Below are positions 1 through 32,742 of a stretch of DNA of 34,010 bases, piece after piece. The translations under genes and the position numbers were made by a program. Position 1 is the stretch's first letter. Each line of letters opens with the position of its first letter. The notes under the pieces are model-generated. The model was not told where the DNA came from. It did no database searches and saw nothing but the letters and a program-made list of their open reading frames with translations. This stretch comes from Planctomycetota bacterium. GTDB lineage: Bacteria; Planctomycetota; Phycisphaerae; Sedimentisphaerales; Anaerobacaceae. The stretch covers positions 1 to 34,010 of the forward strand of contig JACNGQ010000272.1 of the NCBI GenBank assembly GCA_014384025.1. The letters run 5' to 3'.

Positions 1-240
1 TTGGCAGATGCCAGGAAGTGCCGTTTCTGCGGGGAGTGGTTTACGGAGGAAAACAAACATTCTGTAAATAGCAGCCCCACAACTGCTCAGGCTCCAGAAC
101 TCAAGCACAAACTGCAGCCCGAACCTGAAGAAGAACGAACCAAATGCCCTCATTGTTCTGAACAGATATTGGCAGATGCCAGGAAGTGCCGTTTCTGCGG
201 GGAGTGGTTTACGGAGGAAAACAAACATTCTGTAAATAGC
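1..240 (+). repeat. In-frame tandem repeat coding for zinc-ribbon linker, 168-base period
   Basis: Bases 1-72 and 169-240 are identical. The offset of 168 bases is 56 codons, so the reading frame is kept. Each copy encodes the second half of the Cys4 ribbon (K-C-R-F-C-G-E-W-F) and the linker to SVNS. The first copy is cut by the window edge, so the array may have more units upstream. Identity at every third codon position points to a very recent duplication or to ongoing copy-number change. Confidence 0.9.
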
Positions 241-933
241 GACCACAGAACTTCTGAGAAAGTTATTTTTGGCGATAGGAATGTGCCAGTTAAAACAAAA
301 GGGCTTGGATTAGAAGAATACGAAAGGCTAAAAAATAATATTCTTTCTTTGGGTTCTGGAAAAGCCATTAAAACCATTATGGTATCCGGTTCTGTTGCTG
401 GCGAAGGCTGTTCAACTGTAGCAGCACATCTTGCAAGATCTCTTGCAAAAAACAGCGTTTTTAAGGTACTGTTGATAGATGGAAATCTAAGGCATCCCAC
501 TCTACATAAATCCTTTGGGTTAAAAAATAATGTGGGACTGTCAGATTTAATCCTTAGTAAGGCAGGCATTAATGATGTGTTTAAAAAAACTGACTTTCCA
601 AATTTATTGGTTATGCCGAGCGGAAAGAATAAGAAGACAGATCCTCCTCAGATTTTTGAGTCCCAGAAATTAAAGACCCTTATAGGAAAATTGAAAGACG
701 AGTGTAATTATTTGGTCTTTGATTCTCCGCCTGTTAGTACTTACCCCGACTCTACTATCCTCGCATCCCAAATGGATGGGGTCGTCCTTGTTGTTCATGC
801 CGAAAAGACTCGGTGGGAGGTAGCCCAAAGAGTAAAAGAGCAATTAGAAATGGCTAACACAAACATCCTCGGGGTCTTGCTGAATAAAAAGAAGTATGTT
901 ATTCCCAAGTTTATTTATAACCGAATGAAATAG
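1..933 (+). CDS. Zinc-ribbon-fused CpsD/BY-kinase-like ATPase (5' end outside window)
   Basis: This is a MinD/CpsD-type P-loop ATPase of the tyrosine-autokinase family that controls chain length and export of capsule or exopolysaccharide. Residues 49-66 (counted from base 1) form a Cys4 zinc ribbon, C49-P-H-C52 and C63-R-F-C66, followed by the ATPase domain from about residue 105. Walker A is SVAGEGCST (131-139), with Cys137 where the family normally has the catalytic lysine. Walker A' is LLIDGNLRHP (157-166) and Walker B is YLVFDSPP (237-244). There is no C-terminal tyrosine cluster, only Y299 and Y306. The TTG at base 1 corresponds to an internal leucine of the next repeat copy, so the gene probably begins upstream. 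A 72-base segment is repeated exactly (separate entry). It is the first gene of the polysaccharide locus. The family call is firm; kinase activity is doubtful given the missing lysine. Confidence 0.82.
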   Translation: MADARKCRFCGEWFTEENKHSVNSSPTTAQAPELKHKLQPEPEEERTKCPHCSEQILADARKCRFCGEWFTEENKHSVNSDHRTSEKVIFGDRNVPVKTKGLGLEEYERLKNNILSLGSGKAIKTIMVSGSVAGEGCSTVAAHLARSLAKNSVFKVLLIDGNLRHPTLHKSFGLKNNVGLSDLILSKAGINDVFKKTDFPNLLVMPSGKNKKTDPPQIFESQKLKTLIGKLKDECNYLVFDSPPVSTYPDSTILASQMDGVVLVVHAEKTRWEVAQRVKEQLEMANTNILGVLLNKKKYVIPKFIYNRMK

Positions 934-1221: not shown

Positions 1222-2244
1222 ATGACATCAAACAACAAGGGACATCTTTCTGAACAAAGAACACATACTTCGTCTTCAATAGATCAAAAAAGAAGCAGAG
1301 GGAAGTATGAAAAAGTCAAAATAGATCCTTCGAATTGTGAAACGACGGGCAGCTATACCGAGCCATTAAAGTCGATGGCTGATATTGATAATGTCCTTAT
1401 CGATCTGGATGAACGTAAAGTCAGCTGTGCATACACACTAATAAAAAGGTTGATGGATATATTTATTTCGCTGGCAGTAATATCTCTCACTTGGCCAATT
1501 ATGATATATATTTCAGGATTTATTAAGAAAAATTCTCCCGGCCCGGTAATATTCAAACAAATCAGAATAAAGAAGAATCGAAGAAAATATTGGTCAAATT
1601 CTTTGACCGACAGGTACTATTTAGATCCTAAATCAAACGAGTTTCTAAAGGATAGGAGAAAATATCAAAACCAATCTTTGGTAACAGGTAAAAATCATCG
1701 GAAGTCGAATCAGGGCGACGTGTATTTTTTCTGTCCAAAAGATAAAAAAATGAAAAAAGACAGACGGAAGACTAATTTGCCTGGTAGCCTTTTTGTATTC
1801 AACAAATTCAGAACCATGTATGTGGACGCTAGAGAGCGTCTTCCGGAATTATATACATACGAGTACAACGAAGAAGAAATTAAACAGTTAAGATTTAAAA
1901 AAAACAATGACCCGAGGATTCCGGCATGGGCTCGTTGGCTAAGAAAAAGCAGTCTTGATGAACTACCTAATTTGTTTAATGTTTTAATAGGAGATATGAG
2001 CATTGTGGGACCAAGGCCGGAAATCCCGGAGATGGCAAAATATTACTCAGATGAACAAAAGAAGAAATTTAATGTTAAGCCTGGCATTACAGGCTTGGCA
2101 CAAATAAACGGCAGAGGAAATCTGCTGTTTTATGAAACCCTTGAATGTGACCTTGAATATGTAAACAAGCAATCTTTATTGCTGGATTTGAAGATAATAG
2201 CAAGAACAATTAAAGAAACTGTAAAACAAAACGGAGCCTATTAA
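1222..2244 (+). CDS. Polyprenyl-phosphate sugar-1-phosphate transferase (initiating transferase)
   Basis: This 340-residue protein belongs to the bacterial sugar transferase family (WbaP/WcaJ C-terminal domain type). It transfers a sugar-1-phosphate from a nucleotide sugar to undecaprenyl phosphate at the inner membrane and so starts the repeat unit. Residues 73-100 hold the KRLMDIF motif and the single membrane segment. FNKFRTM (193-199), DELPNLFNVLIGDMS (246-260) and VGPRPE (262-267) are the catalytic-core signatures, and PGITGLAQINGRG follows. About 68 residues (122-190) are inserted between QIRIKKNRR and FVFNKFRTM, where the family normally has a short GRxF link; the insert is Lys/Arg rich with KDRRK twice (143-147 and 179-183). 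The N-terminal 70 residues are polar and do not look like the usual four-TM extension. No strong Shine-Dalgarno is seen. Confidence 0.92.
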   Translation: MTSNNKGHLSEQRTHTSSSIDQKRSRGKYEKVKIDPSNCETTGSYTEPLKSMADIDNVLIDLDERKVSCAYTLIKRLMDIFISLAVISLTWPIMIYISGFIKKNSPGPVIFKQIRIKKNRRKYWSNSLTDRYYLDPKSNEFLKDRRKYQNQSLVTGKNHRKSNQGDVYFFCPKDKKMKKDRRKTNLPGSLFVFNKFRTMYVDARERLPELYTYEYNEEEIKQLRFKKNNDPRIPAWARWLRKSSLDELPNLFNVLIGDMSIVGPRPEIPEMAKYYSDEQKKKFNVKPGITGLAQINGRGNLLFYETLECDLEYVNKQSLLLDLKIIARTIKETVKQNGAY

Positions 2245-2651: not shown

Positions 2652-4148
2652 ATGAGAGCAAATTTGGAAATATCGCGATTTTCTTTTGAAAAAACGGCAT
2701 GTGTCCTTTTAGGCGCCGTCTTTGGTATTATATTAATAATTCTACCCATAAAGATGTCGATACTTGCCGTTTTTGGAAGCATAATAACTGTCATTATCTT
2801 AATCAGGACCGAGGTTGGTCTTCTATTGACCATTGCGGCATTCCCTTTTGAAATAGCAGGTAATTTTAACTTAGCCGGCGCTAACACCGCTTTTCAGACT
2901 ATTTCTGTCGTGAAGATACTTGGAGTCATTACAGCTCTATCGTGGTTAATACATCTTTCCAAAAAGAGATATAAAATTGTTATTTCCCCTCAACTTTTCG
3001 TTATAATTGGTCTTATCTTAACGGGAATAATCTCCATCTACTTCGGAACATATCATGGAGAATTTTATGTTAAAAAGGCAATGAAGTATTTATCTATGTA
3101 TATAATATACTTCGCAATATTTTTTATGATGATTAATATCATCAAATCTAAAGCACTAATACAAAACATTATTTTCGTATTGATATTTATAGCTGCTATC
3201 AGTTCCCTATACAGTGTTGTGCAACGTGTTGTACCGAGATTCCGCGTCGAAATTAAAACAAAAGAAGACGATTATTATAGATCTCATGGTGCAATAGTGG
3301 ATCCTACTGAAATGACAACAATTGGATTTATGGTAATCAGAACATCTTCAATAATGGCACATCCTGATGGATTTGCTCTTTTTTTAGCGTTGACAATACC
3401 TCTAACCCTTTATCGTTTTGAACTCTCAAGAGATGGACCCCCGAAAATCGGATGGTTCCTGATATTAATAATGCAGTTTATAGGTCTGACATTAACTTTC
3501 TGCAGAGGAGGAACTTACACGGTTTTCATAATAATGATGTTGATGGTAATTAAAAGAGTAATAAAACCATCATGGGAGAAGATATTCATTGTTATAGCAG
3601 CCTTCGCTATGTTGAGCATACTTGTTTTGAATTCAAAAACGGCTTTGAATCGCCTTTTTGATCCGGGTCATGTTGTAAAAGCTTATTCTTTTCATGGAAG
3701 ATTAGATTTAATACGTGCAGGCGTAAAGATGTTCATAGGAAACAACTGGCTCTTCGGGATTGGCATGGGTAACTACGATTATAATTTGCCATTATATAGT
3801 AATATTCCATTTACTTATGAGCCTACTAATGAATACACACGAATATTATCCGAAATGGGTCTCCTTGGTGTATTCTTTTCTCTTGCTCTTTATTTGTTGA
3901 CATACACAAATTTCAAAGCTGCGGAAAAGCGTTTTAAAAAATATAATGAGTTACAAATGTACTATTTAACAATTACACTTCATGCATGCTTTTTTGGCTT
4001 TTTATTTTATGGCCTTACTCAGGTTACCCTTACAAGAAAGGAATTGCCAATAGTTATGGCTTTAGCATTTGTTCTAAAGCAACTTTCAAATAAACTTGGG
4101 GCTATAAAATCGAAGAAGCCAGAAATTTTAAAACTTGATACTTCTTAA
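2652..4148 (+). CDS. O-antigen ligase/polymerase-like (Wzy/WaaL family) membrane protein
   Basis: This 498-residue, very hydrophobic protein has about 10-12 predicted membrane segments. It carries the O-antigen ligase (PF04932-type) layout: a large periplasmic loop after the mid-protein helices, with the region from HGRLDLIRAG (about 347) through GIGMGNYDYNLP to TNEYTRILSEMGLLGVFF (about 390-408). In the family, the corresponding HNxxLxxxxExGxxG segment sits in the active loop. Here the usual His-Asn pair reads T-N-E. It would polymerise lipid-linked repeats or ligate the glycan on the outer face of the inner membrane. It sits between the initiating transferase and the secreted glycosidase-like gene. 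Polymerase and ligase cannot be separated by sequence alone. ATG at 2652 has no clear ribosome binding site. Confidence 0.85.
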   Translation: MRANLEISRFSFEKTACVLLGAVFGIILIILPIKMSILAVFGSIITVIILIRTEVGLLLTIAAFPFEIAGNFNLAGANTAFQTISVVKILGVITALSWLIHLSKKRYKIVISPQLFVIIGLILTGIISIYFGTYHGEFYVKKAMKYLSMYIIYFAIFFMMINIIKSKALIQNIIFVLIFIAAISSLYSVVQRVVPRFRVEIKTKEDDYYRSHGAIVDPTEMTTIGFMVIRTSSIMAHPDGFALFLALTIPLTLYRFELSRDGPPKIGWFLILIMQFIGLTLTFCRGGTYTVFIIMMLMVIKRVIKPSWEKIFIVIAAFAMLSILVLNSKTALNRLFDPGHVVKAYSFHGRLDLIRAGVKMFIGNNWLFGIGMGNYDYNLPLYSNIPFTYEPTNEYTRILSEMGLLGVFFSLALYLLTYTNFKAAEKRFKKYNELQMYYLTITLHACFFGFLFYGLTQVTLTRKELPIVMALAFVLKQLSNKLGAIKSKKPEILKLDTS

Positions 4149-4502
4149 TAGAAAAGGCCAATATTACGAATTTAATTATACCTCAACCTTCACCTTATGC
4201 AATGGTTAGGGGTATAATATGTTGGAATCAACTAAATTCATTTTGTTAGAAGTTCTTATAATTCACAGAGGCCGCTGATAAAGAATATATTCAAGATAAA
4301 AAGCATGGTCAGCCCCTATTTTCTGATTGCAAAGTTGGTATTTCAGACATAAAATCAGACCTTAAATAAGTTCTACTTGTGGTGCAGTTCTGTTCTTCAA
4401 AGGATCAGAACTGTATCAATAAATCCCGGAAGGGACTAATAAACTAATTTCAGTGTGACAAAAATTATGTATCTCCTGTTCTTAAGAAAGGTGATTGGTC
4501 AA
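4149..4502. other. Gene-free leader region with an 8-base-pair hairpin
   Basis: No gene is visible. A TATAAT at 4212-4217 is a possible -10 element without a good -35. CAGTTCTG at 4385-4392 and CAGAACTG at 4406-4413 are perfectly complementary, giving a stem of 8 pairs and a 13-base loop about 90 bases before the next start. No T-run follows, so it is more likely a regulatory hairpin or operator than an intrinsic terminator. Confidence 0.4.
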
Positions 4503-7500
4503 ATGAAACGCCTACTTTTAATCCTACTCGTCTTGTTATTGCCGGCTATTTGTGTCTGCGAGGAAGAAGAAACAGATCCATTTTATGGCACGCACGGCAT
4601 TCTTTCGAATTTCAATGATGAAAAAGACATCAAACGGTGGTGGGTTTACAAAGGAACAGTATCGATTGCCAAAGATCCGAAAAACATCAAAGAAGGCGCA
4701 GGCGCTTTAGAATGGCAATATGAAATTCGAAACCAGAAATGGAATCTGCTGGCCATAAATAAAATCCCATCTACTAAGTTTAAAGACAAAGAAGGATTAG
4801 CCGTCTGGCTTAAGTCAAATAGAGCCGCTTCATTACTATTACAATTTGTTGAAAAAGATGGCACAAACTACCAATATTTTAATATTGCAAAGCCCGTAGA
4901 ATTAGATTGGAAGTTATTCGAAATAGATTTTGATGAATTTATTCTTGATAAAGATACCCCGGATGACAATAACAAGCTTGATCTGAATCAAATTGACCGC
5001 CTGGAGATCGTCGAAGTTGCAGGTTTTTTTAAAACTTTAGGTGAAGGAGCCAGGACTATTTGGATGGACGATCTCAAGCTTATTGGTGGGGAAAAATCCG
5101 TCGATGATCAGAAGAAAACAGTTTGGCCTATTAAAGCAACCGGAGGTGTTTGTCATGAAAATGGGAAGTTTGGCAAGGGAATATTAATTGATGATGAACA
5201 AGAAAAAGTTGTATTCAACACTCAGAATAATCTAAATCCCACTCAGGGCACTATAGAGATTTGGGTTAAACCATTAAGAAATGAGGAAAAAAAGAAAAAA
5301 GCTTTATTTAGCAGCGAGTGGCCTGAGGATATTTTCGGCCGGAAAGGAAATGAGATAATTCTTTATTTGCATGATAACCAACTGGTTTTTCAAGCAAATA
5401 ATTTAGTTCTTTCAAGCCCAAAGCTGCAATTTCTGAGAGACAGATTTTATCATATAGCAGTTAGTTGGAATAAACAGGGAACGGTTTTGTATTTTGATGG
5501 TCAAAAAGTAGCTGAAAATAACAATAAAAATCTGGGTATGATACCAAAGGAAATGGTTATTGGTAATTTTAGAAATGGTACCGCCCCGGGTCAGGCGATT
5601 ATCGATGAAGTAAGAATATCAAGCTTAAAGCAGAACGAAGAACAGATTCTTGCTTCATCTAAAAATTCTCAGGAATTTGTGTGGGATAGTAATACATTAT
5701 TCTTAGCTCACTTTAATGACTCGATACTTTCAGAAATAGTTATTAAGAACAGCAATTTTAAAAGAGGGGAAAAGATATCATTTGAATTAACCGTGCCAAC
5801 TCCGATTGTTACACGTGAGACTAATAACAGACATAAACTCCAATTTGAGGTTCTTGATAAAGCCAACATCGTCAGGCAAGGGGAAAAAATGCTGACTTGT
5901 ACTATGGGGGATTTATCAGGCCAAAAGAATAATATCAAGCTTGACATCGAAAGTCCCTTACAAGGCGGTGAATATAAACTTCGTCTAAAACTATTTTCAG
6001 ACGAAGATTTATTGAATAAGGGAGAGCAGACGTTTCAAGTACTTCCTCTTCCTGAAAAAGATACAGTTTCTACTTCCGCAAAGCTTGAAACACCTGTTTC
6101 TCCGAAGGAATGGTACAAAAATGTACAGGTCTTTGGGATAATTCCTCTGCCAATAGAAGATGCCAAAGAATTTAATATAACCGTCAATGGCGTATGGGGT
6201 GGTAGCCACACGGCCGACCCTGTGTTGACCAAAGAAAACTTCTCTCCAGCTATTCGAAGAAAATATAAAACTGATACTCAATTTGTATCAGCAATGCATA
6301 ATAACGGGCTTTTAGCATGTGGAGGAATGGTTGCAGCAAGCGGAAATAATACGTCGATGAAACAGCGCCCGGAATTGAGAAAAGCCATAAGTAAAACAGC
6401 CCAGGGTAAAGACGCCATTTCATGGTTAGAGGATTCTTATATAATGTCTGCAAGTAATCCTATATGGTATAACTGGATGATTCAGCTCGGCAAAAAAGCC
6501 ATTGATTCAGGGGTAGATTTGGTAATGTTTGATGATGTTCAGGAATTTCAATTTCCATTTCATTGGGGTTTTGATAGCTACAGTAATGAAGAGTTCAAAA
6601 AATATCTGCGTTCAAATTTTACGATTACTGAAATGAATAGCCGATTCGGCATTGTTGACGTTGATAATTTGCTTCTGGCACAGAGAATCACCGATAAAGC
6701 TGGACAAGATTATGAGACGAGAATAAAAGCAGATCCACTTGTAGATGTTTTTGCAAGATTTCATGAAGAGAAAAATTATCATACAAAAAAACTTATAATC
6801 GAGACCTTAAGAAGATACGCTGAAGAAAAGAACAGGAAAATAGCTATAGCTGCAAATATTATGGCTCTGGGTACTACCCGGTTTGATGGTTATTGGTCAA
6901 AGGGCCTACATTTTAGTGAGTTGGTTGATTTCTTCGCTTTCGAAAGTCTTTATTCCGTTGGTGGGAAAAAAGTAGTTGATATGTCTTTACCCCGAGGGAA
7001 ATGGGTAGCCTGGGAAAAATTGAGTATGGCAGCTACAAAAGGTCCTGCAGTACCTTTGCTTGCCGCAGAAGCTGTTGAACAATTGCAAAAGAAACAAATT
7101 AGCAATTACCTATATATACTCACTGCAGAGGCCTACGCTAATCAGGGAGCCCATATTCTGTGGCATGCACCTTCATATGGAGTTGGCAGGCAATGGAGAA
7201 AATCCGCTGACGCTGCAGGTTTTGTTCTGAAACATCGCGAACTATACGAAAAAGAACAGTCCCTCTATTCCTCATCAGCCATTCTCTATTTATATTCCGA
7301 AGGCATGAGAACAAAGACTTTTACATACCTTGGTTTGGCTCAAGCATTAGCTGAATCCAATATACCGTTTGAGGTTGTCTTTTCCGGGGACGATTATTAC
7401 CTAAAAGATACTTTAACACTCCATGACTTAACAAAGTATAAATTGATTTTAATTCCTTCCGTTATCGATATTACAGATAATCAAAAAGAGATAATAAAAA

Positions 7501-8021
7501 AATATGTAGCCAATGGTGGAAGGGCAATCATCGTCGATGCTTTTGAAATGAATATTTATCAATCAGAGGGAGAAATTAACTTTGGAAAAGGGAGCTTCAT
7601 AATTATGCCTTCATTAAATATCGAAGGAAAACCGGAAGATCCCGGGTCTGCTTACAATCTGACTTATAATGATATGATAAGAAAAGATATCAAAAAAGCC
7701 GTAAATAAGTATGTTGAGGATGCGATCGTTATCAATAACTCAGACCGCAAGATAATTGCCTACCCTTATTGTCAGACAAAAGAAAAGAGGATGGTAATCC
7801 ACCTTATCAATTATGATCATAACTTCAAGAACGATAGGGTCATGGTAAAAAAGAACATAAAGATCAGGATCAAGAAACCGGATTTTTATACTGGTCAACG
7901 AGAAGCATTTATGGTCTCTCCGGATATTAAGAGCAGAATTACATTACCCGTTACTCTCAGTGATGGTTATCTTGAACTCGAAATCCCCGAACTCAGAGTT
8001 TATAATATTATTGTCCTATAA
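4503..8021 (+). CDS. Secreted LamG/glycoside-hydrolase-like multidomain protein
   Basis: The chosen ATG at 4503 gives 1172 residues, follows AAGAAAGGTG at 4484-4493 and begins directly with a signal peptide (MKRLLLILLVLLLPAICVC). The frame is also open from a GTG at 4455, but that start would bury the signal. Visible regions: a CBM-like jelly-roll at about 30-195 (ends WMDDLKLIGG); a LamG/concanavalin-like domain at about 213-400 (TIEIWVKP, IDEVRIS); an Ig-like segment at about 418-516; a TIM-barrel glycosidase-like region at about 533-906 with LVMFDDVQEF (D677, D678, E681) and FAFESLYS (E814) as candidate acidic residues; a GH42-trimerisation/amidotransferase-like fold at about 916-1020; and a C-terminal beta domain. 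It probably cleaves or binds a polysaccharide outside the cytoplasm, perhaps the product of this locus. The exact GH family is not recognised. Confidence 0.75.
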   Translation: MKRLLLILLVLLLPAICVCEEEETDPFYGTHGILSNFNDEKDIKRWWVYKGTVSIAKDPKNIKEGAGALEWQYEIRNQKWNLLAINKIPSTKFKDKEGLAVWLKSNRAASLLLQFVEKDGTNYQYFNIAKPVELDWKLFEIDFDEFILDKDTPDDNNKLDLNQIDRLEIVEVAGFFKTLGEGARTIWMDDLKLIGGEKSVDDQKKTVWPIKATGGVCHENGKFGKGILIDDEQEKVVFNTQNNLNPTQGTIEIWVKPLRNEEKKKKALFSSEWPEDIFGRKGNEIILYLHDNQLVFQANNLVLSSPKLQFLRDRFYHIAVSWNKQGTVLYFDGQKVAENNNKNLGMIPKEMVIGNFRNGTAPGQAIIDEVRISSLKQNEEQILASSKNSQEFVWDSNTLFLAHFNDSILSEIVIKNSNFKRGEKISFELTVPTPIVTRETNNRHKLQFEVLDKANIVRQGEKMLTCTMGDLSGQKNNIKLDIESPLQGGEYKLRLKLFSDEDLLNKGEQTFQVLPLPEKDTVSTSAKLETPVSPKEWYKNVQVFGIIPLPIEDAKEFNITVNGVWGGSHTADPVLTKENFSPAIRRKYKTDTQFVSAMHNNGLLACGGMVAASGNNTSMKQRPELRKAISKTAQGKDAISWLEDSYIMSASNPIWYNWMIQLGKKAIDSGVDLVMFDDVQEFQFPFHWGFDSYSNEEFKKYLRSNFTITEMNSRFGIVDVDNLLLAQRITDKAGQDYETRIKADPLVDVFARFHEEKNYHTKKLIIETLRRYAEEKNRKIAIAANIMALGTTRFDGYWSKGLHFSELVDFFAFESLYSVGGKKVVDMSLPRGKWVAWEKLSMAATKGPAVPLLAAEAVEQLQKKQISNYLYILTAEAYANQGAHILWHAPSYGVGRQWRKSADAAGFVLKHRELYEKEQSLYSSSAILYLYSEGMRTKTFTYLGLAQALAESNIPFEVVFSGDDYYLKDTLTLHDLTKYKLILIPSVIDITDNQKEIIKKYVANGGRAIIVDAFEMNIYQSEGEINFGKGSFIIMPSLNIEGKPEDPGSAYNLTYNDMIRKDIKKAVNKYVEDAIVINNSDRKIIAYPYCQTKEKRMVIHLINYDHNFKNDRVMVKKNIKIRIKKPDFYTGQREAFMVSPDIKSRITLPVTLSDGYLELEIPELRVYNIIVL

Positions 8022-8115
8022 ATTATTCCCTATCACAAAAGTCAATTACCTCCTCTATGTCACTGCCAAAAGACAATAGATGATGTCGACAGGTTTTTCG
8101 GAATGTAGATAAGCT

Positions 8116-9225
8116 ATGTATAATCAATATCCCATTGAACTTATAAAAATAGGTGTCGCAAGTTTCCGTAATTATTGTTCGCGAAGGCTTCATTGCTATT
8201 CTGGAAAAGCCTTCTATAAACCTGTAAATGTTATTATAGATATTACCAATAAATGCAACTTAAGATGCAGACACTGTTCCGTATGGTCGGATTCTCAGAA
8301 GACAACATTTATGTCGGCGCATCAGGTTAAGAAGTTACTGTCTGATTTAGAGGATTGGCTTGGCACTTTTAAGTTCGGTTTTTGCGGAGGTGAACCTCTT
8401 TTAAGAAATGACCTCATTGAAATAATTCAATTTGCCTGCCGGAAAGGAATCATTACCGGTGTAATTAGTAATGGAGTTCTTTTGGATGAAAAATGGGCAG
8501 AACAGTTATTGTCTTCTGGGATATCTAGTGTGACTATATCTCTGGATGGGTTTACTCCACAAACCCATGACTTTGTGAGAGGTGCTCCGGGAACATTTGC
8601 TAAAACAACTGCTGCGGTTAAGCATCTTAAAGATCTCAGGAAAAAGTATAATTCAAAAACAAGGATTACTATCAACACCGTTATTCTGGAATCTAATTTG
8701 GATGAATTAGTGGATATATTAAATTGGGTGGAAACAAACGGTTTAGATGATATTTGGTTCGCTCCTCTGGGACAAAATTTTGGTGCCTCGGTGGGTAATG
8801 CAGATTGGTCTAAAGAAAATGATTTATGGGTAAAACGGTTAGACAAACTGGATCAAGTCTTAGACGAACTGATCCGACGAAAAAAAAATGGGAGCCCGAT
8901 TAACAATACTATTTCCCATTTAAATTCCTTAAGACATTATTTCAGGCCCGACTGTTCAGTAAAGCCACCAACGTGTGAGGCGGGTATTACTACTATAGGT
9001 ATATCAGCAAACGGAGATATGGTCCTGTGTCCGTATATGGAGGCTCTCGGCAATGTTATGAATTCTGACTTAAAGGAGATTTGGAATTCTGATAAGGCTG
9101 TAAGAATTAGGAATCAAATAAAAACCTGCGAAAAAGCTTGTTATGTAAGGTACGGTTTCTATCAAAAGCCCTTGATTGAGCAAATCAGAAGATTCTCCAG
9201 AATGATAAAGGAATCGAGAACATGA
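8116..9225 (+). CDS. Radical SAM protein with SPASM-like C-terminal cysteines
   Basis: This 369-residue protein has the radical SAM cluster motif C47-x3-C51-x2-C54 in TNKCNLRCRHC, followed by FGFCGGEPLL (the SAM-binding GGE motif) and TISLDG. A C-terminal set of cysteines, C280, C287, C305 (MVLCPY), C338 and C342, plus GISANGDMVLCP and LKEIWNS, follows the SPASM/twitch pattern that binds auxiliary Fe-S clusters. Family members modify peptides, sugars or cofactors by radical chemistry in the cytoplasm. The stop overlaps the start of the next gene by ATGA (9222-9225), so the two are translationally coupled. The substrate is unknown; the setting suggests tailoring of the polysaccharide, its lipid carrier or a nucleotide sugar. 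The start at 8116 lacks an obvious Shine-Dalgarno. Confidence 0.88.
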   Translation: MYNQYPIELIKIGVASFRNYCSRRLHCYSGKAFYKPVNVIIDITNKCNLRCRHCSVWSDSQKTTFMSAHQVKKLLSDLEDWLGTFKFGFCGGEPLLRNDLIEIIQFACRKGIITGVISNGVLLDEKWAEQLLSSGISSVTISLDGFTPQTHDFVRGAPGTFAKTTAAVKHLKDLRKKYNSKTRITINTVILESNLDELVDILNWVETNGLDDIWFAPLGQNFGASVGNADWSKENDLWVKRLDKLDQVLDELIRRKKNGSPINNTISHLNSLRHYFRPDCSVKPPTCEAGITTIGISANGDMVLCPYMEALGNVMNSDLKEIWNSDKAVRIRNQIKTCEKACYVRYGFYQKPLIEQIRRFSRMIKESRT

Positions 9226-10751
9226 AGATTTTGTTTATTTATCCGGATTTCGTAAGCACTGGAAAAGACCGGCATGGTATGTATAACCATGGAATCGGCC
9301 TGTTATCTGCCGTTCTAAAAAAAGAAGGACACGAAGTTGCTCTACTTCATATAATCAAGCCAATAACAAAAAATAAATTTACTGACCACCTTAATAGACA
9401 ACAACCTGATATCGTTGCTTTTTCGGCCACTACTAATCTCTATAAGTATGTTAAGGACTGGAGCAAGTGGACAAAAGAACATTCTGAAGCAATAGTCATA
9501 TGTGGTGGAATACATCCGACTTTGGTTCCGGAAGAAGTCATAAAAGAAAAATCCATTGATGCCGTTTGCATTAGAGAAGGGGAATACTCTTTGGCTGAAT
9601 TTTGCAAATACATTGATAACAATATCGATAATAAGCATATCAACGGGATTTGGTTAAAGGAGGACGGGAAAATTTATAAAGGGGAACCCAGACCACTTTC
9701 TAATCTGGACGAGTTGCCTTTCCCGGACAAGAGCATCTTCGATTATAGAAATCTGACTTTAGGAAGCGAGGGTTGTGGAATATTTATGGCCTCAAAAGGA
9801 TGCCCTTATAATTGCACATATTGCTGCAATGAAACCCTTAGGAAAAGTACGAACACTTCTGGGCAGCCTTATGTAAGATTCAAAAGCGTTGACTATATCA
9901 TCGCAGAAATCGAGGATGAATTAACAAAATATCCCTTTATCAATGTCATAGGTTTTGACGATGATATTTTGCCCTTAAAAATCGACTGGTTTGAAGAATT
10001 CGTAAAGCAGTACAAAAGAAATATTCACCTTCCTATGGCATGTAACCTCAGACCTAATCTTGCGACAAAAGAAAGGTTTAAACTGTTAAAAGAAGCTGGT
10101 TGTATTCAGATTGCTATGGGAATAGAAGCTGGAAATGACTTTATTAGAAACACGATTCTTAAACGCAATCTCTCACTAGAACAGATTATTAACGCCTACA
10201 GTTTATGTGAAGAAGCAGGGATAAAAATGTTTGCATATAATATGATAGGCTTGCCTTTTGAAAATGTTTCTACAATGCTGGAAACAATTAAGCTAAATGC
10301 ACAAGTGAAGATCGATATGTGCCAGGCCAGCATTTTCTATCCTTATCCTAAAACCGAACTTTATGAATTATGCAGGAGAGAAAATCTAATTACTAATCGT
10401 TACGGTAAGTTCAGGAATTTTTTTACAGATACCCCTCTTAATTTTACTTTAATTGAAAGATGCCAGATACGTTTTATACAAAGGTATTTCAGAGTCCTGG
10501 TGATAGTGTATTGTTTTATATTCTCATTACCTGAGAAGACCTCAAAAGTGTGTGTAAAAATTTATGATTCTTTTCTTTCCTCCAGGATTACAGCAGTATT
10601 AATTTGCCCTGTTTTATTAATAATCCACCAAGCTATAATGAGTACTAAAATGACCAACAAGGCCGGTAGGTGGATTCTAAGAAACATATTGGAAAATCCT
10701 AATCAATCACGTAAATTAAAAAAATCCTCAAACCTCAAAAAAACAGAATGA
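9222..10751 (+). CDS. B12-binding-domain radical SAM protein (paralogue A)
   Basis: This 509-residue protein has an N-terminal B12-binding Rossmann-like domain (MKILFIYPDF, then VICGGIHPTLVPEE) and a BchE/P-methylase-type radical SAM core with C194-x3-C198-x2-C201 in SKGCPYNCTYCCN. IGFDDDILP, MACNLRPNL and MGIEAGNDFIRN are later core strands. The classical DxHxxG cobalamin-ligand motif is not seen, as in many BchE-like proteins. The C-terminus (about 415-509) has two hydrophobic stretches that may contact membrane. It overlaps the preceding radical SAM gene by four bases. Its closest relative in the window is the protein at 12468, which shares segment after segment. Family members C-methylate or cyclise unactivated carbons; the substrate here is not known. 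Confidence 0.88.
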   Translation: MKILFIYPDFVSTGKDRHGMYNHGIGLLSAVLKKEGHEVALLHIIKPITKNKFTDHLNRQQPDIVAFSATTNLYKYVKDWSKWTKEHSEAIVICGGIHPTLVPEEVIKEKSIDAVCIREGEYSLAEFCKYIDNNIDNKHINGIWLKEDGKIYKGEPRPLSNLDELPFPDKSIFDYRNLTLGSEGCGIFMASKGCPYNCTYCCNETLRKSTNTSGQPYVRFKSVDYIIAEIEDELTKYPFINVIGFDDDILPLKIDWFEEFVKQYKRNIHLPMACNLRPNLATKERFKLLKEAGCIQIAMGIEAGNDFIRNTILKRNLSLEQIINAYSLCEEAGIKMFAYNMIGLPFENVSTMLETIKLNAQVKIDMCQASIFYPYPKTELYELCRRENLITNRYGKFRNFFTDTPLNFTLIERCQIRFIQRYFRVLVIVYCFIFSLPEKTSKVCVKIYDSFLSSRITAVLICPVLLIIHQAIMSTKMTNKAGRWILRNILENPNQSRKLKKSSNLKKTE

Positions 10752-11036
10752 AAACTGTTTTTGTCTTTCGGATATGCTCTCTTAAACATTTTTCTCGAAA
10801 CGTTATTAAGACTACAGAAGACACACTTTCAAATCATTATTACATTTCAATGTATTAAAACCCGTTGAAATGTGCTTGTCGATGAGCTAAATACATCAAG
10901 TGTGAAAATAATTGCATGAAACATAGTTAATTTTAGAGAGATCCTAAATCATACTTATCTTTGGAAGAAATATATTAAGAACGTTTATTGTCATTAAGAC
11001 CTTAGAACACACAAAAATAGAGAGAGTCGTTTTTTA
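10752..11036. other. Intergenic stretch with a 9-base-pair hairpin
   Basis: No gene is seen in these 285 bases. ACATTTCAA at 10842-10850 and TTGAAATGT at 10865-10873 are perfectly complementary around a 14-base loop. There is no T-run after it. It separates the radical SAM pair from the next radical SAM gene and could be a regulatory or mRNA-processing structure. Confidence 0.4.
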
Positions 11037-12455
11037 ATGAAATACAGTCGAGTATTATTAGTAAGAACTTCTGTTCAGTTTTTCGGTTCTTATTTGCCGG
11101 TAGGACTGGGCATTCTGAGTGAAATCTTAAAGGATAAAGCTGTTGACCATGAGGTCATGGATATGAATATAGGAAATAAAGTTGATGATCTCATTTCAAA
11201 AATTTCCATATTCAAGCCGGACCTGATAGGAATTAGTTTATTATCGGTGGCTTACAAAGAAGCCTACGATTTGCTCAGAAAGATTAAAAAGATTTTTCCT
11301 GACGTTGACATTGTTGTCGGAGGTCCCCATATTTCGATATTTAAAGAAAGTGTCCTTAAACAATGTGAGTCTATAGATTTTGGTGTAATTGGGGAGGGAG
11401 AGGAAGTTCTTGTAGAATTATGCAGTGATAAAAAATTAAAAGATATAAAAGGCCTATTTTATCGTAATGGCAATGAAATAGTTTTCTCTGGAGACAGAAA
11501 GCTTATTACTAATCTTGACAGTTTCCCTTTTCCGAAATATGAAAAGTTTGAAATAAATAAATACGAAAAAATTATCCCTGTTTATTCATCAAGAGGTTGT
11601 CCATATAGATGCACTTTTTGCTCCGTTCATCAGGTTATAGGAAGAGGATTCAGAGCCCAAACGGCCGAATATGTACTCAATGAACTAAAATACTGGTACT
11701 TTCAGGGATATCGGCACATATATTTCTTCGATGATGATTTTTCTCAAGACCTTGAAAGGATTTTCAGGTTATGCAAATTAATCAAAAAAGAAAAGATCAA
11801 TGATTTAAGGATGTCTTGTGCTGATGTTAGGGCCGATAAGCTTAATAAGGATTTATTGAAAGCCATGTGGGAAGTCGGTTTCAGGGAAGTAGATCTTGGT
11901 GTGGAAGGGGGCAATAATAAAATATTAAGATCTATAAAGAAAGGTGAGACCATTGAGAGAATAGAAGAAACTATTAGAGACGCATGTGACTTGGGTTTTA
12001 ATGTTCAATTATTTTTTCAAATTGGTTTTCCGGGCCAAACTGTTTCAGATATCGAAGATGCCGTTGAGCTTGCGCTTAAATATCCCATTAAAAGGGCGCA
12101 TTTCTTTAATACTGTTCCAACACCTAACACAGAATTATATAAATGGATTTTACAGAATAGTCGTTTATTAGAGAAGCCGGAAGAGTACATGAATGGAGCA
12201 TATCATACGGTGAATAAGCCCCTTTTTGAGACAGATGAGCTATCTTTAGAGGATAGAAAAAAAATGTTGGATTATACAAGTAAAATCTCAATCCTGACTT
12301 TGAAAAACTACTATTCACGAAAACTGAAAAAATATGGATTGTTAGGAAAATTAATAGTCATAATAGGTTTTAATAAAGCTTTTATAAAATTAAGAGAAAA
12401 TACCAAACTCTGGAACACAATCTCTTCAGTCCCAAAACGTCTTTTGAAAGCATAG
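11037..12455 (+). CDS. B12-binding-domain radical SAM protein (divergent type)
   Basis: This 472-residue protein has an N-terminal cobalamin-binding-like domain (PVGLGILSEIL, VVGGPHISIF) and a radical SAM core with C188-x3-C192-x2-C195 in SSRGCPYRCTFCSV. HIYFFDDDFSQD, DLGVEGGNNKILRSIKKG and FFQIGFPGQT are the conserved strands after the cluster motif. It has the same architecture as its two neighbours but is clearly more distant from both than they are from each other, so it probably acts on a different carbon or substrate. Only 12 bases separate it from the next radical SAM gene, which implies one transcript. The Shine-Dalgarno is weak (AGAGAG before 11037). Confidence 0.87.
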   Translation: MKYSRVLLVRTSVQFFGSYLPVGLGILSEILKDKAVDHEVMDMNIGNKVDDLISKISIFKPDLIGISLLSVAYKEAYDLLRKIKKIFPDVDIVVGGPHISIFKESVLKQCESIDFGVIGEGEEVLVELCSDKKLKDIKGLFYRNGNEIVFSGDRKLITNLDSFPFPKYEKFEINKYEKIIPVYSSRGCPYRCTFCSVHQVIGRGFRAQTAEYVLNELKYWYFQGYRHIYFFDDDFSQDLERIFRLCKLIKKEKINDLRMSCADVRADKLNKDLLKAMWEVGFREVDLGVEGGNNKILRSIKKGETIERIEETIRDACDLGFNVQLFFQIGFPGQTVSDIEDAVELALKYPIKRAHFFNTVPTPNTELYKWILQNSRLLEKPEEYMNGAYHTVNKPLFETDELSLEDRKKMLDYTSKISILTLKNYYSRKLKKYGLLGKLIVIIGFNKAFIKLRENTKLWNTISSVPKRLLKA

Positions 12456-12467
12456 TGGTAAATTATA

Positions 12468-13907
12468 ATGAAAATTCTTTTTGTTTACCCGGACATACTT
12501 CCTTATCTTCCTTTTTGGAAAGGCTATTATTATGAAGGCATAGGATCTTTATCTTCGTATCTAAAGCAACATGGGCATAACACATCCCTAATCCATATTA
12601 CTAAACCTATCAGCAAAGAAAACTTAATTAACACAGTTACTAATGAAGCCCCTGATCTCATTGGATTTTCCTCTACGTCACATGCCTTCCCTATTGTAAA
12701 AAAACTCGCACGTTGGATTAAAGAAGAGAAAATACCTGCGCCTGTTGTTTGTGGCGGGGTACATCCTACCATATCTCCCGATGAGGCCATAAATACAGAA
12801 GGCATCGATATGATTTGTAGAGGAGAAGGGGAAGAAACTCTGCATGAACTATGTAATAAATTAGCAAAAGGCAAGGACATCAGAAAAATTCAAAATATCT
12901 GGTATAAAGATAATGATGTAATTTTCAAAAATCCGCTAAGGCCGCCTTGTCAGGATTTGAGTGAGCTTCCTTTTCCTGATAGAAATATTTTCGAGTATAA
13001 AGATCTATTTCACGAAAGATTAGGTGAAGCATCGGTTATGATTTCAAGGGGCTGCCCTTATCAATGTAGTTATTGTTGTAATCATGTCCTGAATGGGCTT
13101 TATGGCCAAAATAATAAACGAGTCAGATTCAGGAGCGTAAATAATGCAATTGGCGAGATTAAACAAATACTGAATGATTTTTCTTTCATAAAGGCTATAC
13201 ACTTCGACGATGACATACTCTTCTTGGATAAGAAATGGGGTACTGATTTCATGTTAAAGTATAAAGAAGAAGTAGGAGTGCCATTTCGCTGTAATATGAG
13301 ACCTAATTTGTTGGATAAAGATAAAGTGGAACTTATGAAAAAAGCCGGATGTTTCCAGGTCGTAATCGGGCTTGAAAGTGGCAATGATTATATAAGAAAC
13401 AAGATTCTAAAGCGAAATTTAAGCAACGACCAAATAGTAAACGCTTTACAACTACTAAATGACGCAAAAATTCATACCAAATCTTTCAATATGGTAGGAA
13501 TCCCATTTGAGGATACAAGCACGATTCTGGACACAATAAAGTTGAACGCAAAAATGCATGTCGATGAAATTCAAGCTACAATTTTTCAGCCTTATCAGGG
13601 AACAACGTTGTATAATTTATGTTTAGAAAAGGGATTATTGACAAATAAGGAATTAGCCGAGGATTTCTTTTCGCCATCTCCGGTGTTGTTGGACACTGTT
13701 ACCCCTGAACATGTCTTGATGTTTAGAGATTATTTCAAAATTTTCGTAAGAATGTATCAAATACTATACTTGTTTCCAAACATCTTATCTCGCGTCCTAA
13801 TAAATTCTACGGATAAAGTTTTATCGCTTAAATATACTCCCAAAGTATTAAATAAAATCTTCCCAAGCATAAATTCAATATATAGATTAATCCAGTACAA
13901 AACCTAG
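12468..13907 (+). CDS. B12-binding-domain radical SAM protein (paralogue B)
   Basis: This 479-residue protein is built like the one at 9222: MKILFVYPDI, VVCGGVHPTISPDE in the B12 domain, then C196-x3-C200-x2-C203 in SRGCPYQCSYCCN, IHFDDDILFLDK, RCNMRPNLLDKD and IGLESGNDYIRNKILKRNLS. The same phrases occur at matching places in the 9222 protein, so the pair arose by duplication although a divergent family member now lies between them. The C-terminus lacks the long hydrophobic tail of the 9222 protein. It is likely co-transcribed with the gene ending at 12455. The reaction and substrate are unknown; a C-methyl or ring-forming tailoring step is an inference from the family. Confidence 0.88.
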   Translation: MKILFVYPDILPYLPFWKGYYYEGIGSLSSYLKQHGHNTSLIHITKPISKENLINTVTNEAPDLIGFSSTSHAFPIVKKLARWIKEEKIPAPVVCGGVHPTISPDEAINTEGIDMICRGEGEETLHELCNKLAKGKDIRKIQNIWYKDNDVIFKNPLRPPCQDLSELPFPDRNIFEYKDLFHERLGEASVMISRGCPYQCSYCCNHVLNGLYGQNNKRVRFRSVNNAIGEIKQILNDFSFIKAIHFDDDILFLDKKWGTDFMLKYKEEVGVPFRCNMRPNLLDKDKVELMKKAGCFQVVIGLESGNDYIRNKILKRNLSNDQIVNALQLLNDAKIHTKSFNMVGIPFEDTSTILDTIKLNAKMHVDEIQATIFQPYQGTTLYNLCLEKGLLTNKELAEDFFSPSPVLLDTVTPEHVLMFRDYFKIFVRMYQILYLFPNILSRVLINSTDKVLSLKYTPKVLNKIFPSINSIYRLIQYKT

Positions 13908-13959: not shown

Positions 13960-15102
13960 ATGGATAAGATAAATGTCATGCATATTACGAATAATATTGG
14001 CTATGCGTCAAGTGTAGAACGTTTAATCTTGACTTTGACAGAAAAGATAGAAAAGCCCAGGTTCAGCATAAGTATTGTGTCCTTGACCGAGCCTGAGCGC
14101 GTATCAAAAACTTTTTTAAATAGTGCGAGAGCTCTGGGAGCGCCCACGAACCTCATACCATGGAAAAGGTCTAAGCCTTTTGCTACTTCGATTTTAAAGT
14201 TGACTAAACTAATAAAAAAATATGAAATAGATATAGTGCATACACACGAAGTGAGAACAAACCTTGTTGGCCTGATAGCAGCCAGGTTAACTGGTGTCAA
14301 GATGGTTGCCTCCATCCATGGGTGGGTTATGAACACAGTTCCATTTTTATGGAAACTCTATCAACATTTTGACAGACGAGTTATTAGATGCTGTGACCAT
14401 ATCATTGTTGGCTCAAATTTCCTAAGAAACGAAATAATTAAAATGGGCATTCCTTCTCAGAAAGTAACCACTATTCACAATGCCATAGATACTACAAGTT
14501 TAGACTTATCTGCTTCTTCAATGAACTTCAAGAAAAAATATAATCTTAATCCAAAGGATACACTAATTGGTACTGTAGGAAGGATCAGCAGGGAAAAGGG
14601 GCATAAATATTTACTGGAAGCCGCAAAGATTGTGATCCAGCAGCATCCTGATGTAAAGTTTTTAATCGTGGGAGAGGGAGAGATAAGGGCTGAACTGGAA
14701 ATATATGCTAAATCGCTGGGTATATTTGATAATGTCATTTTTACCGGATATTATAAGAACCTGTCCGAGGCACTCGCTGTTATGGATCTTTTTGTTATAC
14801 CTTCTCTTACAGAAAGTCTGCCCCTGGCTGTCCTGGAGGCTATGGCCGCAGGCAAGCCTGTTATTAGCACAAATGTTGGCGGCATACCGGAAATCATAAT
14901 TCATGGAGAAACGGGACTTCTTGTAAGACCACAGAATGGAATGGAACTGGCTAATTCAATTATTACTATGTTAAACAATAATGATCTTCTTTTCAAAATG
15001 GCAAAGAAAGGCAAGGAGCTTGTGAATACTGAATTTTCTATTCATAATTTCATAGAACAAACAGAAAACCTTTATTCTAATATAATCCGCAATCATACAT
15101 GA
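13960..15102 (+). CDS. GT4-family glycosyltransferase
   Basis: This 380-residue GT-B retaining glycosyltransferase adds a sugar to the lipid-linked repeat unit at the cytoplasmic face. The N-terminal domain has HITNNIGYASSVERL, where most relatives have a GGxE(R/T) motif, and DIVHTHEVRTNLVG. The C-terminal domain has IGTVGRISREKGH, FLIVGEGE and the E-x7-E donor-site motif (E285 and E293) in ESLPLAVLEAMAAGKPVI, followed by GGIPEIIIHGETGLLV. The ATG at 13960 follows a CAGGA element. It directly follows the radical SAM genes (52 bases). The sugar donor cannot be told from sequence. Confidence 0.93.
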   Translation: MDKINVMHITNNIGYASSVERLILTLTEKIEKPRFSISIVSLTEPERVSKTFLNSARALGAPTNLIPWKRSKPFATSILKLTKLIKKYEIDIVHTHEVRTNLVGLIAARLTGVKMVASIHGWVMNTVPFLWKLYQHFDRRVIRCCDHIIVGSNFLRNEIIKMGIPSQKVTTIHNAIDTTSLDLSASSMNFKKKYNLNPKDTLIGTVGRISREKGHKYLLEAAKIVIQQHPDVKFLIVGEGEIRAELEIYAKSLGIFDNVIFTGYYKNLSEALAVMDLFVIPSLTESLPLAVLEAMAAGKPVISTNVGGIPEIIIHGETGLLVRPQNGMELANSIITMLNNNDLLFKMAKKGKELVNTEFSIHNFIEQTENLYSNIIRNHT

Positions 15103-17692: not shown

Positions 17693-18418
17693 ATGCGTGC
17701 TGTAATATTGGCTGGTGGCAAAGGAACGCGTTTATTACCTTACACAACAACAATCCCCAAGCCCTTAGTACCGGTGGGAGATATGGCTATTATGGAAATA
17801 GTTGTTCATCAGTTGAGTCGCTGTGGTTTCAATCATATAACGGTGGCTGTGAATCATCAAGCGCAACTGATTAGGGCCTATTTCGAAGATGGCAAACGGT
17901 GGGGTATTACAATAGATTATTCTATGGAAGATAAACCACTTGGCACAATGGGTCCTCTCAGGTTGATTGATGACTTGCCCGAGCATTTCCTCGTCATGAA
18001 CGGTGATGTTCTGACGGATATCAATTATGCTGATTTTTATCAATCGCATATAGATAGCGGGTCAATTGGTACAGTTGCTATATATAAACGTGATGTAAAA
18101 ATTGACTTTGGTGTTCTTGGTTTTGGCGGTGAGAAGAATCTAATCTCGGAGTTTGTTGAAAAACCTGTAGAACATTTTTGTGTTAGTATGGGTGTTTATG
18201 CGTTTTCAAGGGAGATAATGAAGTACATCCCCGAAGCGAAGCCCTTTGGTTTTGATGACCTGATGCTCAAGCTCATTGCAGAAAAACAAGATATTCGGGC
18301 TCATCCATTTACTGGATACTGGCTTGATATCGGTCGTCCTGAAGATTACGATAGAGCAAACAATGAATTTGAAGAGATCATAGATCGGCTTTTACCGCCA
18401 AAGCCCAAGTCAAAGTAA
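17693..18418 (+). CDS. Sugar-1-phosphate nucleotidyltransferase (mannose-1-phosphate guanylyltransferase-like)
   Basis: This 241-residue protein is a nucleotidyl transferase family enzyme that makes an NDP-sugar from a sugar-1-phosphate and an NTP. It opens with MRAVILAGGKGTRLLPYT, the nucleotide-binding loop, and IPKPLVPVGD with the conserved K23. VMNGDVLTD has the metal-binding aspartate D105. The segments EFVEKP, VYAFSREI and GYWLDIGRPEDY complete the sugar-binding core. The short length means the left-handed beta-helix tail of larger homologues is absent. It has a good Shine-Dalgarno (GGGAG before ATG). Its position between a 4,6-dehydratase-like gene and an RMD-like gene suggests GDP-mannose or a related donor, but NTP choice cannot be read from the sequence. 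Confidence 0.88.
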   Translation: MRAVILAGGKGTRLLPYTTTIPKPLVPVGDMAIMEIVVHQLSRCGFNHITVAVNHQAQLIRAYFEDGKRWGITIDYSMEDKPLGTMGPLRLIDDLPEHFLVMNGDVLTDINYADFYQSHIDSGSIGTVAIYKRDVKIDFGVLGFGGEKNLISEFVEKPVEHFCVSMGVYAFSREIMKYIPEAKPFGFDDLMLKLIAEKQDIRAHPFTGYWLDIGRPEDYDRANNEFEEIIDRLLPPKPKSK

Positions 18419-20874: not shown

Positions 20875-21738
20875 ATGAAGGCTATCATTACAGGAACGCT
20901 TAAAAGGATATTATATATTGGGGGGTTTTGTGCCTTAACAAAACAAATAAGAATATTATTTTATCATTCGGTAGATAATAGCGGCTCTCCTTTATCGACT
21001 TCCATAGAAACATTTGAAAAACAAATGTCTTACTTAAAAAAAAAGGGATACCGTACGATATCATTATCTCATTACATTAACAATATATATCAAAAACATA
21101 CTCAACACAAAAAATTAGTACTTATTACTTTTGATGATGGTTTTAAAAGTACCTATCTTCATGCATTTCCTGTATTGAAAAAATATGGTTTCTTAGCCAC
21201 CGTCTTTTTGACTACTGATTATATCAATGGATTGGCTGGCTGGATAAAAAGAGACATAAATTTAATAGAGGATAGAATATTCAATTCATCAATAAGTAAA
21301 AAGGAGCTCCAGGAGATTACGAAAGCTTCTGATTTTCCCCTGATGACATGGGAAGAAATAAAGGAGATGGACGACTACGGAATGGAATTTGGTTCACACA
21401 CGTCGAGCCATATCTGGTTGGGAAAAACCACAACAGAGGAAATATTGGAGGATATCAAGAGATCTAAGGCTATAATCGAGGAAAAGCTTAACAAGCCCGC
21501 AGATTTTTTTTCCTACCCTTACAGTGACTATAAGCCTGAGACTAAGGAGATTGTCAAGGATCTCGGTTTCAGGGCGGCATGCGGAGGGGATCCGAGAGCG
21601 GACAGATCAGCCAATGACCTCTTCGGGCTAAAGAGAACGGGCCCTTTTCCTGCAGAGAATTTTTTTGAATTCAAATTCATCTTTTCAGCCGCCTTTGACT
21701 GGTACATCGGCCTGGTAGTAAGGCTTAAAGGTATGTAG
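20875..21738 (+). CDS. Polysaccharide deacetylase (NodB homology domain)
   Basis: This 287-residue protein carries the NodB/CE4 fold, which removes N- or O-acetyl groups from glycans using a metal. Motif 1 is LITFDDGF with D87 and D88, and motif 2 is GSHTSSH with metal ligands H175 and H179. FFSYPYSDYKPETKEIV stands for motif 3. The N-terminus (about 1-25) is mildly hydrophobic and could anchor the protein, but no clear signal peptide is visible. It lies between the flippase and a GT2 transferase, so it may modify the lipid-linked repeat or the exported chain. It could remove acetyls from HexNAc residues, which is inference. Confidence 0.9.
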   Translation: MKAIITGTLKRILYIGGFCALTKQIRILFYHSVDNSGSPLSTSIETFEKQMSYLKKKGYRTISLSHYINNIYQKHTQHKKLVLITFDDGFKSTYLHAFPVLKKYGFLATVFLTTDYINGLAGWIKRDINLIEDRIFNSSISKKELQEITKASDFPLMTWEEIKEMDDYGMEFGSHTSSHIWLGKTTTEEILEDIKRSKAIIEEKLNKPADFFSYPYSDYKPETKEIVKDLGFRAACGGDPRADRSANDLFGLKRTGPFPAENFFEFKFIFSAAFDWYIGLVVRLKGM

Positions 21739-30269: not shown

Positions 30270-31037
30270 TCAATCGGGAAGATATCGCATCCATTCCGGC
30301 CAGTCCTCCGGTATCGCACCGCCGCCCTTCGTCCACGGCCCCGACTCATCATACTCTCGGTTCCATTTCAGTTGCCAAAGCCCTTTGAGCCGCACGTGTC
30401 GCACTGACCAATCCAACATGGCTACGTTAATCGCTTCACCATGGCGGTTCAGGCAGAAACGTTTCATGTTATCACCAAAGCTATAGCTCCAGTCCCCTTC
30501 GAATTCAGGTGGATTGTCCACGTGGTGCGGAGCGCCGCCCACCCAGAGGCAATCGGCAAAAGCCGGGATGTAGCTGGCCAGCTTGACATTCTTCGTCCGC
30601 CAGTTCATCGTGGTTGAGGCCCCCCACTGCTGTTCTACACCAGGGGGCGGATTGAAAAGGAACTCGTTAATACCGTAGCTGCCGGTGTAGTCCCCGGATA
30701 CCCAAAGCTTGAACGTATCGCCCCAATCCGCCCGCCCCACGTCCTTTCGCTCGCTGACCATGGGACAATAGCGCATATCGCTGGCCTTGTAGTAAGGCTC
30801 GGCCGGCTCCATCCATTCGAAATAGTTACCTGCACCGGCCATGAAGAAGCCATTGTTATCATCGGCGTAGAAATTCAGCACCAGACCCCACTGCTTCAGA
30901 TTCGAAAGGCAGACAACAGACTTCGCCTGTTCTTTCACACGCTGAAGCGCCGGCATAAGGATGGCCATCAGAAGAGCAATAATCGCAATCACCACTAATA
31001 GTTCGATCAAGGTAAAAGCGCCTTGTTTACGATTCAT
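30270..31037 (-). CDS. Prepilin-like protein 1 (type II pseudopilin N-terminus)
   Basis: This 255-residue protein has a class III prepilin leader and helix: MNRKQG then [19 protein letters not shown]. In most prepilins the leader ends in Gly and the next residue is Phe; here Ala stands between them, so either cleavage is after Ala or the Glu lies at +6. The rest is a globular domain found in large families of Planctomycetota and Lentisphaerae. The C-terminus has [16 protein letters not shown], an H-x9-D element in which the usual DG is DW. It ends in [11 protein letters not shown] strong Shine-Dalgarno (AAAGGAGG) overlaps the gap after the preceding gene, from which it is only 13 bases apart. 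It would form or join a secretion/pilus-like fibre, but its role is not known. Confidence 0.85.
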
Positions 31038-31050
31038 TATATACCTCCTT

Positions 31051-31854: not shown

Positions 31855-31856
31855 GG

Positions 31857-31906: not shown

Positions 31907-31914
31907 ATCTTTTC

Positions 31915-32682: not shown

Positions 32683-32742
32683 GATGTCGTCCCTTCTCTC
32701 TTTTGCCGATAACAAGATTCGCTCGTATGCTTTTCTGCTGTA

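Follow-up and report, generated by a model that had tools for sequence, protein, structure and literature searches.

The cobalamin-type radical S-adenosylmethionine (SAM) enzymes known to date belong mainly to antibiotic, lipid and cofactor pathways and to protein modification. Here, four radical SAM genes, RS1 to RS4, are described that lie together among polysaccharide genes of a Planctomycetota bacterium. The window, which means the whole stretch of DNA analyzed, comprises 34,010 bases (contig JACNGQ010000272.1 of assembly GCA_014384025.1), and the host genome is a metagenome-assembled genome (MAG) of 6.69 Mb in 448 contigs, 95% complete. The four genes are intact and span positions 8116-13907:

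RS1, 8116..9225, + strand: radical SAM/SPASM enzyme, 369 aa; PF04055 and PF13186 above cut-off; CX3CX2C at residue 47
RS2, 9222..10751, + strand: B12-binding radical SAM enzyme, 509 aa, paralogue of RS4; PF02310 and PF04055
RS3, 11037..12455, + strand: divergent B12-binding radical SAM enzyme, 472 aa; PF02310 and PF04055
RS4, 12468..13907, + strand: B12-binding radical SAM enzyme, 479 aa; PF02310 and PF04055

The SPASM domain of RS1 (PF13186, 40.4 bits, cut-off 21.5) is C-terminal to its radical SAM domain. RS2, RS3 and RS4 each contain a B12-binding and a Radical_SAM domain above the curated Pfam cut-offs, the domain combination of class-B radical SAM enzymes, and are expected to bind cobalamin. 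Every protein contains one CX3CX2C motif, at residue 194 in RS2, 188 in RS3 and 196 in RS4. RS1 and RS2 overlap by 4 bases (ATGA), with the start of RS2 inside the stop of RS1, and RS3 and RS4 are separated by 12 bases; the 285-base spacer between RS2 and RS3 contains no convincing gene, so the four genes are better described as two pairs than as a single tight operon. RS2 and RS4 share 41-42% identity, and RS3 shares 28-29% with either. An earlier note, made from the letters alone, had described one SPASM-like and three B12-type genes, both junctions, and two paralogues with a divergent gene between them; the Pfam domains, exact coordinates and identities agree with it throughout. In a FastTree phylogeny of 118 proteins (with local support values), RS2 was grouped with a protein of another Planctomycetota genome and not with RS4 (support 0.90), and the two paralogues are therefore not a recent local duplication. 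Since 45 radical SAM matches were detected across the host genome, a lone radical SAM gene would be unremarkable there, but four within 6 kb amid polysaccharide genes are not.

RS1-RS4 lie inside a same-strand run of polysaccharide genes (positions 1-24926), the other members of which are:

1..933, + strand: CpsD/Wzc-like ATPase (AAA_31/ParA), first codon lost at the window start
1222..2244, + strand: polyprenyl-phosphate sugar phosphotransferase, the initiating enzyme (PGT); Bac_transf PF02397; TIGR03025 237 bits, under the cut-off of 295.55
2652..4148, + strand: Wzy/O-antigen-ligase-type membrane protein; PF04932
4455..8021, + strand: large, probably secreted protein with a concanavalin-A-like domain (PF13385, Laminin_G_3); hydrophobic N-terminus, judged by eye
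13960..15102, + strand: GT4 glycosyltransferase; PF00534, PF13439
15257..16372, + strand: GT4 glycosyltransferase; PF00534
16660..17652, + strand: LegB-like nucleoside diphosphate (NDP)-sugar 4,6-dehydratase; PF16363; TIGR04180 441 bits, cut-off 475
17693..18418, + strand: sugar-1-phosphate nucleotidylyltransferase; PF00483
18433..19389, + strand: NDP-sugar epimerase/dehydratase-type short-chain dehydrogenase/reductase (SDR); PF16363, PF01370
19490..20797, + strand: Wzx-type flippase; PF01943, one of three matches genome-wide
20875..21738, + strand: polysaccharide deacetylase; PF01522
21815..22744, + strand: GT2 glycosyltransferase; PF00535
22943..23824, + strand: SAM-dependent methyltransferase with Trm112-like N-terminus; PF03966, PF08241
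23931..24926, + strand: GDP-mannose 4,6-dehydratase (GMD)-like protein; PF16363; TIGR01472 380 bits, cut-off 415

The island around RS1-RS4 is a polysaccharide assembly locus of the Wzx/Wzy type, in which an initiating phosphotransferase, a Wzy-type polymerase/ligase (called from PF04932, which takes in ligases too), glycosyltransferases, a Wzx and a CpsD-like ATPase occur together. The glycosyltransferases that the earlier note placed downstream of the four genes are those at 13960 and 15257. Its glycosidase-like assignment of the upstream gene was not confirmed, as the 4455-8021 protein (1188 residues) matched Laminin_G_3 alone in Pfam and had no sequence match in the PDB; with two weak partial matches in 119 related genomes, it is almost without relatives. 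The presence of three NDP-sugar SDR genes may point to 6-deoxy sugars as substrates. Most island genes (radical SAM, PGT, Wzy, Wzx and glycosyltransferase) have a GC content of 34-38%; those of CpsD, LegB, the nucleotidyltransferase, the SDR and GMD have 41-46%, and the part of the window at 28-34 kb has 47-51%. Most of the island, including the radical SAM genes, is thus compositionally distinct. A promoter and terminator scan gave fewer matches than in shuffled sequence, and Rfam gave zero matches.

Relatives of the B12-type proteins were found in similar surroundings in several phyla. RS3 forms one clade with nine other proteins (support 0.996). The nine come from four Planctomycetota (G005, G021, G487, G387), one MAG each of Nitrospirae and Omnitrophota, two Woesearchaeota and one unclassified bacterium. 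Gene context was read at ten other loci, namely the nine tree members and a fragment, L139, which came from the collection scan and is absent from the tree. Glycosyltransferase and/or Wzx-type genes are near the RS3 relative in seven of the ten (L041, L132, L134, L137, L138, L146 and L147), and these loci span Planctomycetota, Nitrospirae, Omnitrophota and Woesearchaeota. A Wzx gene lies within 10 kb in five of the ten, compared with about 1% of the host genome lying that near a PF01943 gene; the binomial probability of 1e-8 is rough, as the density was taken from a single genome and the loci are related by descent. The RS2/RS4 clade (support 0.997) has its other members in G104, G296 and G454, with glycosyltransferases near all of them and a flippase near two. 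The three readable loci elsewhere (L042, L143/L144 and L148) are all glycan loci, a count that leaves out L149 of G372, in GC-rich DNA. In the G454 island (L143) the order CpsD, PGT, Wzy_C, SPASM and Wzx is as in the window; GT, GT2, the RS2/RS4 relative and GT4 (GT, glycosyltransferase) come next, and after the GT4 gene lie SPASM genes and four more genes for B12 radical SAM enzymes.

Side observations were made at loci with RS2- or RS4-like genes. In L042, a glucuronyl C5-epimerase C-terminal match (7869-9797) lies immediately ahead of the G104 clade member, and in L143 a SPASM radical SAM gene appears divided into two open reading frames (12677-13279 and 13342-13830), possibly by a frameshift or assembly error. 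In genomes of the same family as the host, a related RS4-like B12 radical SAM gene is present in apparent lipopolysaccharide (LPS) core/heptose loci (L047, L049, L053, L057 and L078), so called by eye from reading-frame starts resembling heptosyltransferase, RfaE, GmhA and GmhB; this gene may encode a distinct enzyme of LPS modification that is conserved.

No close orthologue of RS1 was found among 392 genomes of the phylum, and the protein has no NCBIfam equivalog. Around its best relatives, a GT4-type gene was found in six of the eight loci read (L178, L180, L181, L182, L183 and L186); as for the other two, L179 has an ABC-transporter-type gene (by eye) and L185 gave no match in a crude search. 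RS1-like SPASM genes adjoin a gene resembling flavin adenine dinucleotide-dependent amine oxidases in L134 (PF01593 match) and, by N-terminus, in L182, L183 and L186. A member of the RS3 clade and a SPASM gene occur together in L041, L043, L134 and L138; L041 and L138 also have an RS4-like gene. Orthologues of all four genes were found together in no other locus: the pairing of SPASM and B12 enzymes recurs, the exact four-gene set does not. The earlier note had offered the link to the polysaccharide as an inference that would fail if homologues generally lay elsewhere. The contexts of the RS3 and RS2/RS4 clades give it independent support, and those of the nearest RS1 relatives largely bear it out.

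RS1-RS4 probably alter sugars, because most of their relatives in other phyla, bacterial and archaeal, lie in similar islands. We infer, with a probability of roughly two in three, that they modify a sugar of the surface polysaccharide that the Wzx/Wzy-type locus assembles, by radical remodelling. The substrate would be a nucleotide-linked or polyprenyl-linked sugar, ahead of export by Wzx. In the order of steps that we envisage, the [4Fe-4S] cluster of RS2-RS4 would cleave SAM, the resulting 5'-deoxyadenosyl radical would abstract a hydrogen atom from a sugar C-H, and the sugar radical would then be methylated from methylcobalamin, or rearranged or deoxygenated. RS1, with its SPASM domain, might catalyse a second radical reaction, for example an epimerisation or an oxidation. 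The four may act one after another, as in the multi-step pathway that the earlier note suggested.

The known relatives were considered with regard to the reaction. RS2, RS3 and RS4 scored above no cut-off of the curated NCBIfam families, and membership of any such family was rejected. The top profile for all three was HpnJ (TIGR03471, cut-off 577.6), with 126, 163 and 154 bits for RS2, RS3 and RS4, respectively; in the same order, BchE (TIGR02026, cut-off 481.35) gave 118, 109 and 137 bits and AprD4 (NF033070, cut-off 500) gave 63, 71 and 75 bits. TIGR04295 (B12_rSAM_oligo), a family of B12-binding radical SAM proteins with an NCBIfam name that points to oligosaccharides, gave 46, 70 and 67 bits with a cut-off of 400, which makes RS2-RS4 non-members, and RS3 reached 111 bits with the MgmA family (cut-off 360). 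In a sequence search of the PDB, MgmA was best for RS3 (80 bits) and AprD4 for RS2 and RS4 (83 bits). The AlphaFold2 models of RS3 and RS4 (mean predicted confidence, pLDDT, 87.9 and 82.8) align along their whole length with cobalamin-type radical SAM enzymes. Structure searches with the predicted RS3 fold gave AprD4 (Z 33.9, 407 residues, 3.2 A), OxsB (30.7), TsrM (30.1) and MgmA (29.7), and those with RS4 gave OxsB (26.4), MgmA (26.1) and AprD4 (25.6). The nearest families are HpnJ, AprD4, OxsB and MgmA, and all but MgmA, a proven methylase whose target is a protein, act on sugars or sugar-containing substrates. AprD4, the radical SAM diol dehydratase of apramycin, deoxygenates an aminoglycoside sugar (PMC5461906), OxsB contracts the ring of a deoxyribose on the pathway to the antibiotic oxetanocin (PMC11659888), and HpnJ completes a cyclitol ether, starting from a lipid that bears glucosamine (PMC12583986). 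Among class-B C-methylases, GenK and GenD1 methylate sugar carbons of aminoglycosides in gentamicin biosynthesis (PMC5461906) and are likened to RS2-RS4 here by described function.

Sugar chemistry is therefore well represented among the known relatives, and the particular reaction is not readable from sequence. As a guess from these relatives, C-methylation is slightly favoured, though still short of even odds, because most characterised class-B radical SAM enzymes are methylases (PMC11659888); deoxygenation or ring contraction may jointly account for a sizeable minority of the probability, and some other reaction is less likely. That the enzymes are dehydratases, deoxygenases or ring-contracting enzymes acting on sugars (AprD4-, OxsB- or HpnJ-like) and not C-methylases is a serious alternative, if the less probable one. 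It draws on AprD4 as the best solved relative of RS2 and RS4 by sequence and, 3 Z units above the next, of RS3 by structure, and on HpnJ as the top profile. The stretch of AprD4 that aligns, by contrast, carries CX3CX3C instead of the CX3CX2C of RS2-RS4, and its sequence match omits the N-terminal domain, which in RS3 and RS4 aligns with the cobalamin enzymes OxsB and CysS. OxsB, in turn, aligns over both the N-terminal and radical domains, but it is a far longer protein with another substrate. Two residues after the third cysteine, RS3 has V and RS2 and RS4 have N, where TokK (W215) and CysS have tryptophan; the residue in TokK sits between the cluster and the cobalamin (PMC11659888). Its lack in RS2-RS4 is in keeping with a reaction other than methylation, but it is not decisive, because the methylase MgmA likewise has no aromatic residue there and has V in the alignment, as in RS3.

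A lipid carrier or other membrane lipid as the target, in the manner of HpnJ/HpnR or of ladderane enzymes, is suggested by the HpnJ and TIGR04072 lipid B12/radical SAM profiles, which are among the better partial matches. The HpnI-HpnK-HpnJ pathway of bacteriohopanetetrol cyclitol ether also combines a glycosyltransferase, a deacetylase and a B12-binding radical SAM enzyme acting on a lipid-linked sugar (PMC12583986). The likeness of the window's deacetylase (PF01522) to HpnK is one of general function. What differs in the window is the setting, a locus for polysaccharide assembly that includes four radical SAM genes; the 126-163 bits are far under the HpnJ cut-off, and no match to the C-terminal domain of squalene-hopene cyclase (SQHop_cyclase_C) was found in the host genome (G000) or its genus-mate G005, so a hopanoid substrate is unlikely. 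HpnJ itself acts on the sugar head of its substrate (PMC12583986). Altogether, we consider a lipid target quite improbable. Still less probable is a peptide substrate, that is, a protein-modification system, or one for ribosomally synthesised and post-translationally modified peptides (RiPPs), placed in the island by coincidence. Enzymes with a SPASM domain are typical of RiPP maturation, RS1 has the domain, and SkfB is among its solved relatives. The sugar-acid decarboxylase BlsE, however, matches RS1 about equally, the relatives of RS1 adjoin glycosyltransferases, the Pfam matches of the neighbours include no peptide-binding domain, and no convincing small precursor gene adjoins the four genes, for which reason a RiPP system was rejected.

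Several findings weigh against remodelling of a polysaccharide sugar by RS1-RS4. Three RS3-clade loci (L043, L135 and L139) showed no glycosyltransferase or flippase by the searches made, L139 being a contig of 5.5 kb; a polysaccharide deacetylase and FemAB-type genes are present in L043. The SPASM partners of different loci are not orthologues and fall into separate groups of the tree, and one orthologous partner across loci was rejected. The fold of RS4 favours no one reaction, its top four structures being tied. When B12 radical SAM clusters of three genomes were compared with GT1 genes at 10 kb (clusters pooled within 15 kb, contig ends ignored), p values of 0.31, 0.03 and 0.08 gave no clear enrichment. 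Superfamily membership alone thus predicts nothing, a general rule of co-location with GT1 genes is not claimed, and the glycan link is specific to the RS3 and RS2/RS4 clades. This weak genome-wide association, together with the abundance of radical SAM matches in the host, would suit chance co-location, in which genes numerous in the phylum land in AT-rich islands with no functional link; the clade-specific recurrence in several phyla, archaea included, argues otherwise and makes chance very unlikely.

Two further features of the host DNA were recorded. On contig C363, a second sugar locus (L080, 5422-18162) holds a B12 radical SAM gene together with a nucleotidyltransferase, a GHMP kinase, several SDRs and a two-subunit transketolase-like pair; L067 and L068 resemble it and contain two to three genes for B12 radical SAM enzymes. 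In the window, four adjacent minus-strand genes at 30270-33715 with type IV pilin-like N-termini form a paralogous group.

Literature searches in an incomplete open-licence library found no described polysaccharide system with such enzymes, in agreement with the earlier note, which knew of none with this set. The locus joins a known superfamily and a known locus type in a way for which no described counterpart was found in that library. We suggest, tentatively and at somewhat less than even odds, a recurrent and laterally spread toolkit of several cobalamin radical SAM and SPASM enzymes that builds carbon-modified (branched, deoxygenated or ring-contracted) polysaccharide sugars in anaerobic bacteria and archaea, a radical chemistry so far undescribed for polysaccharides. 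The RS3 clade provides a small, defined set of proteins in which the idea of polysaccharide sugars as substrates can be tested. If it is true, the surface glycans of uncultured Planctomycetota, Omnitrophota and Woesearchaeota would contain carbon skeletons beyond those of ordinary sugar chemistry, which would bear on phage recognition, the biofilm matrix and resistance to degradation.

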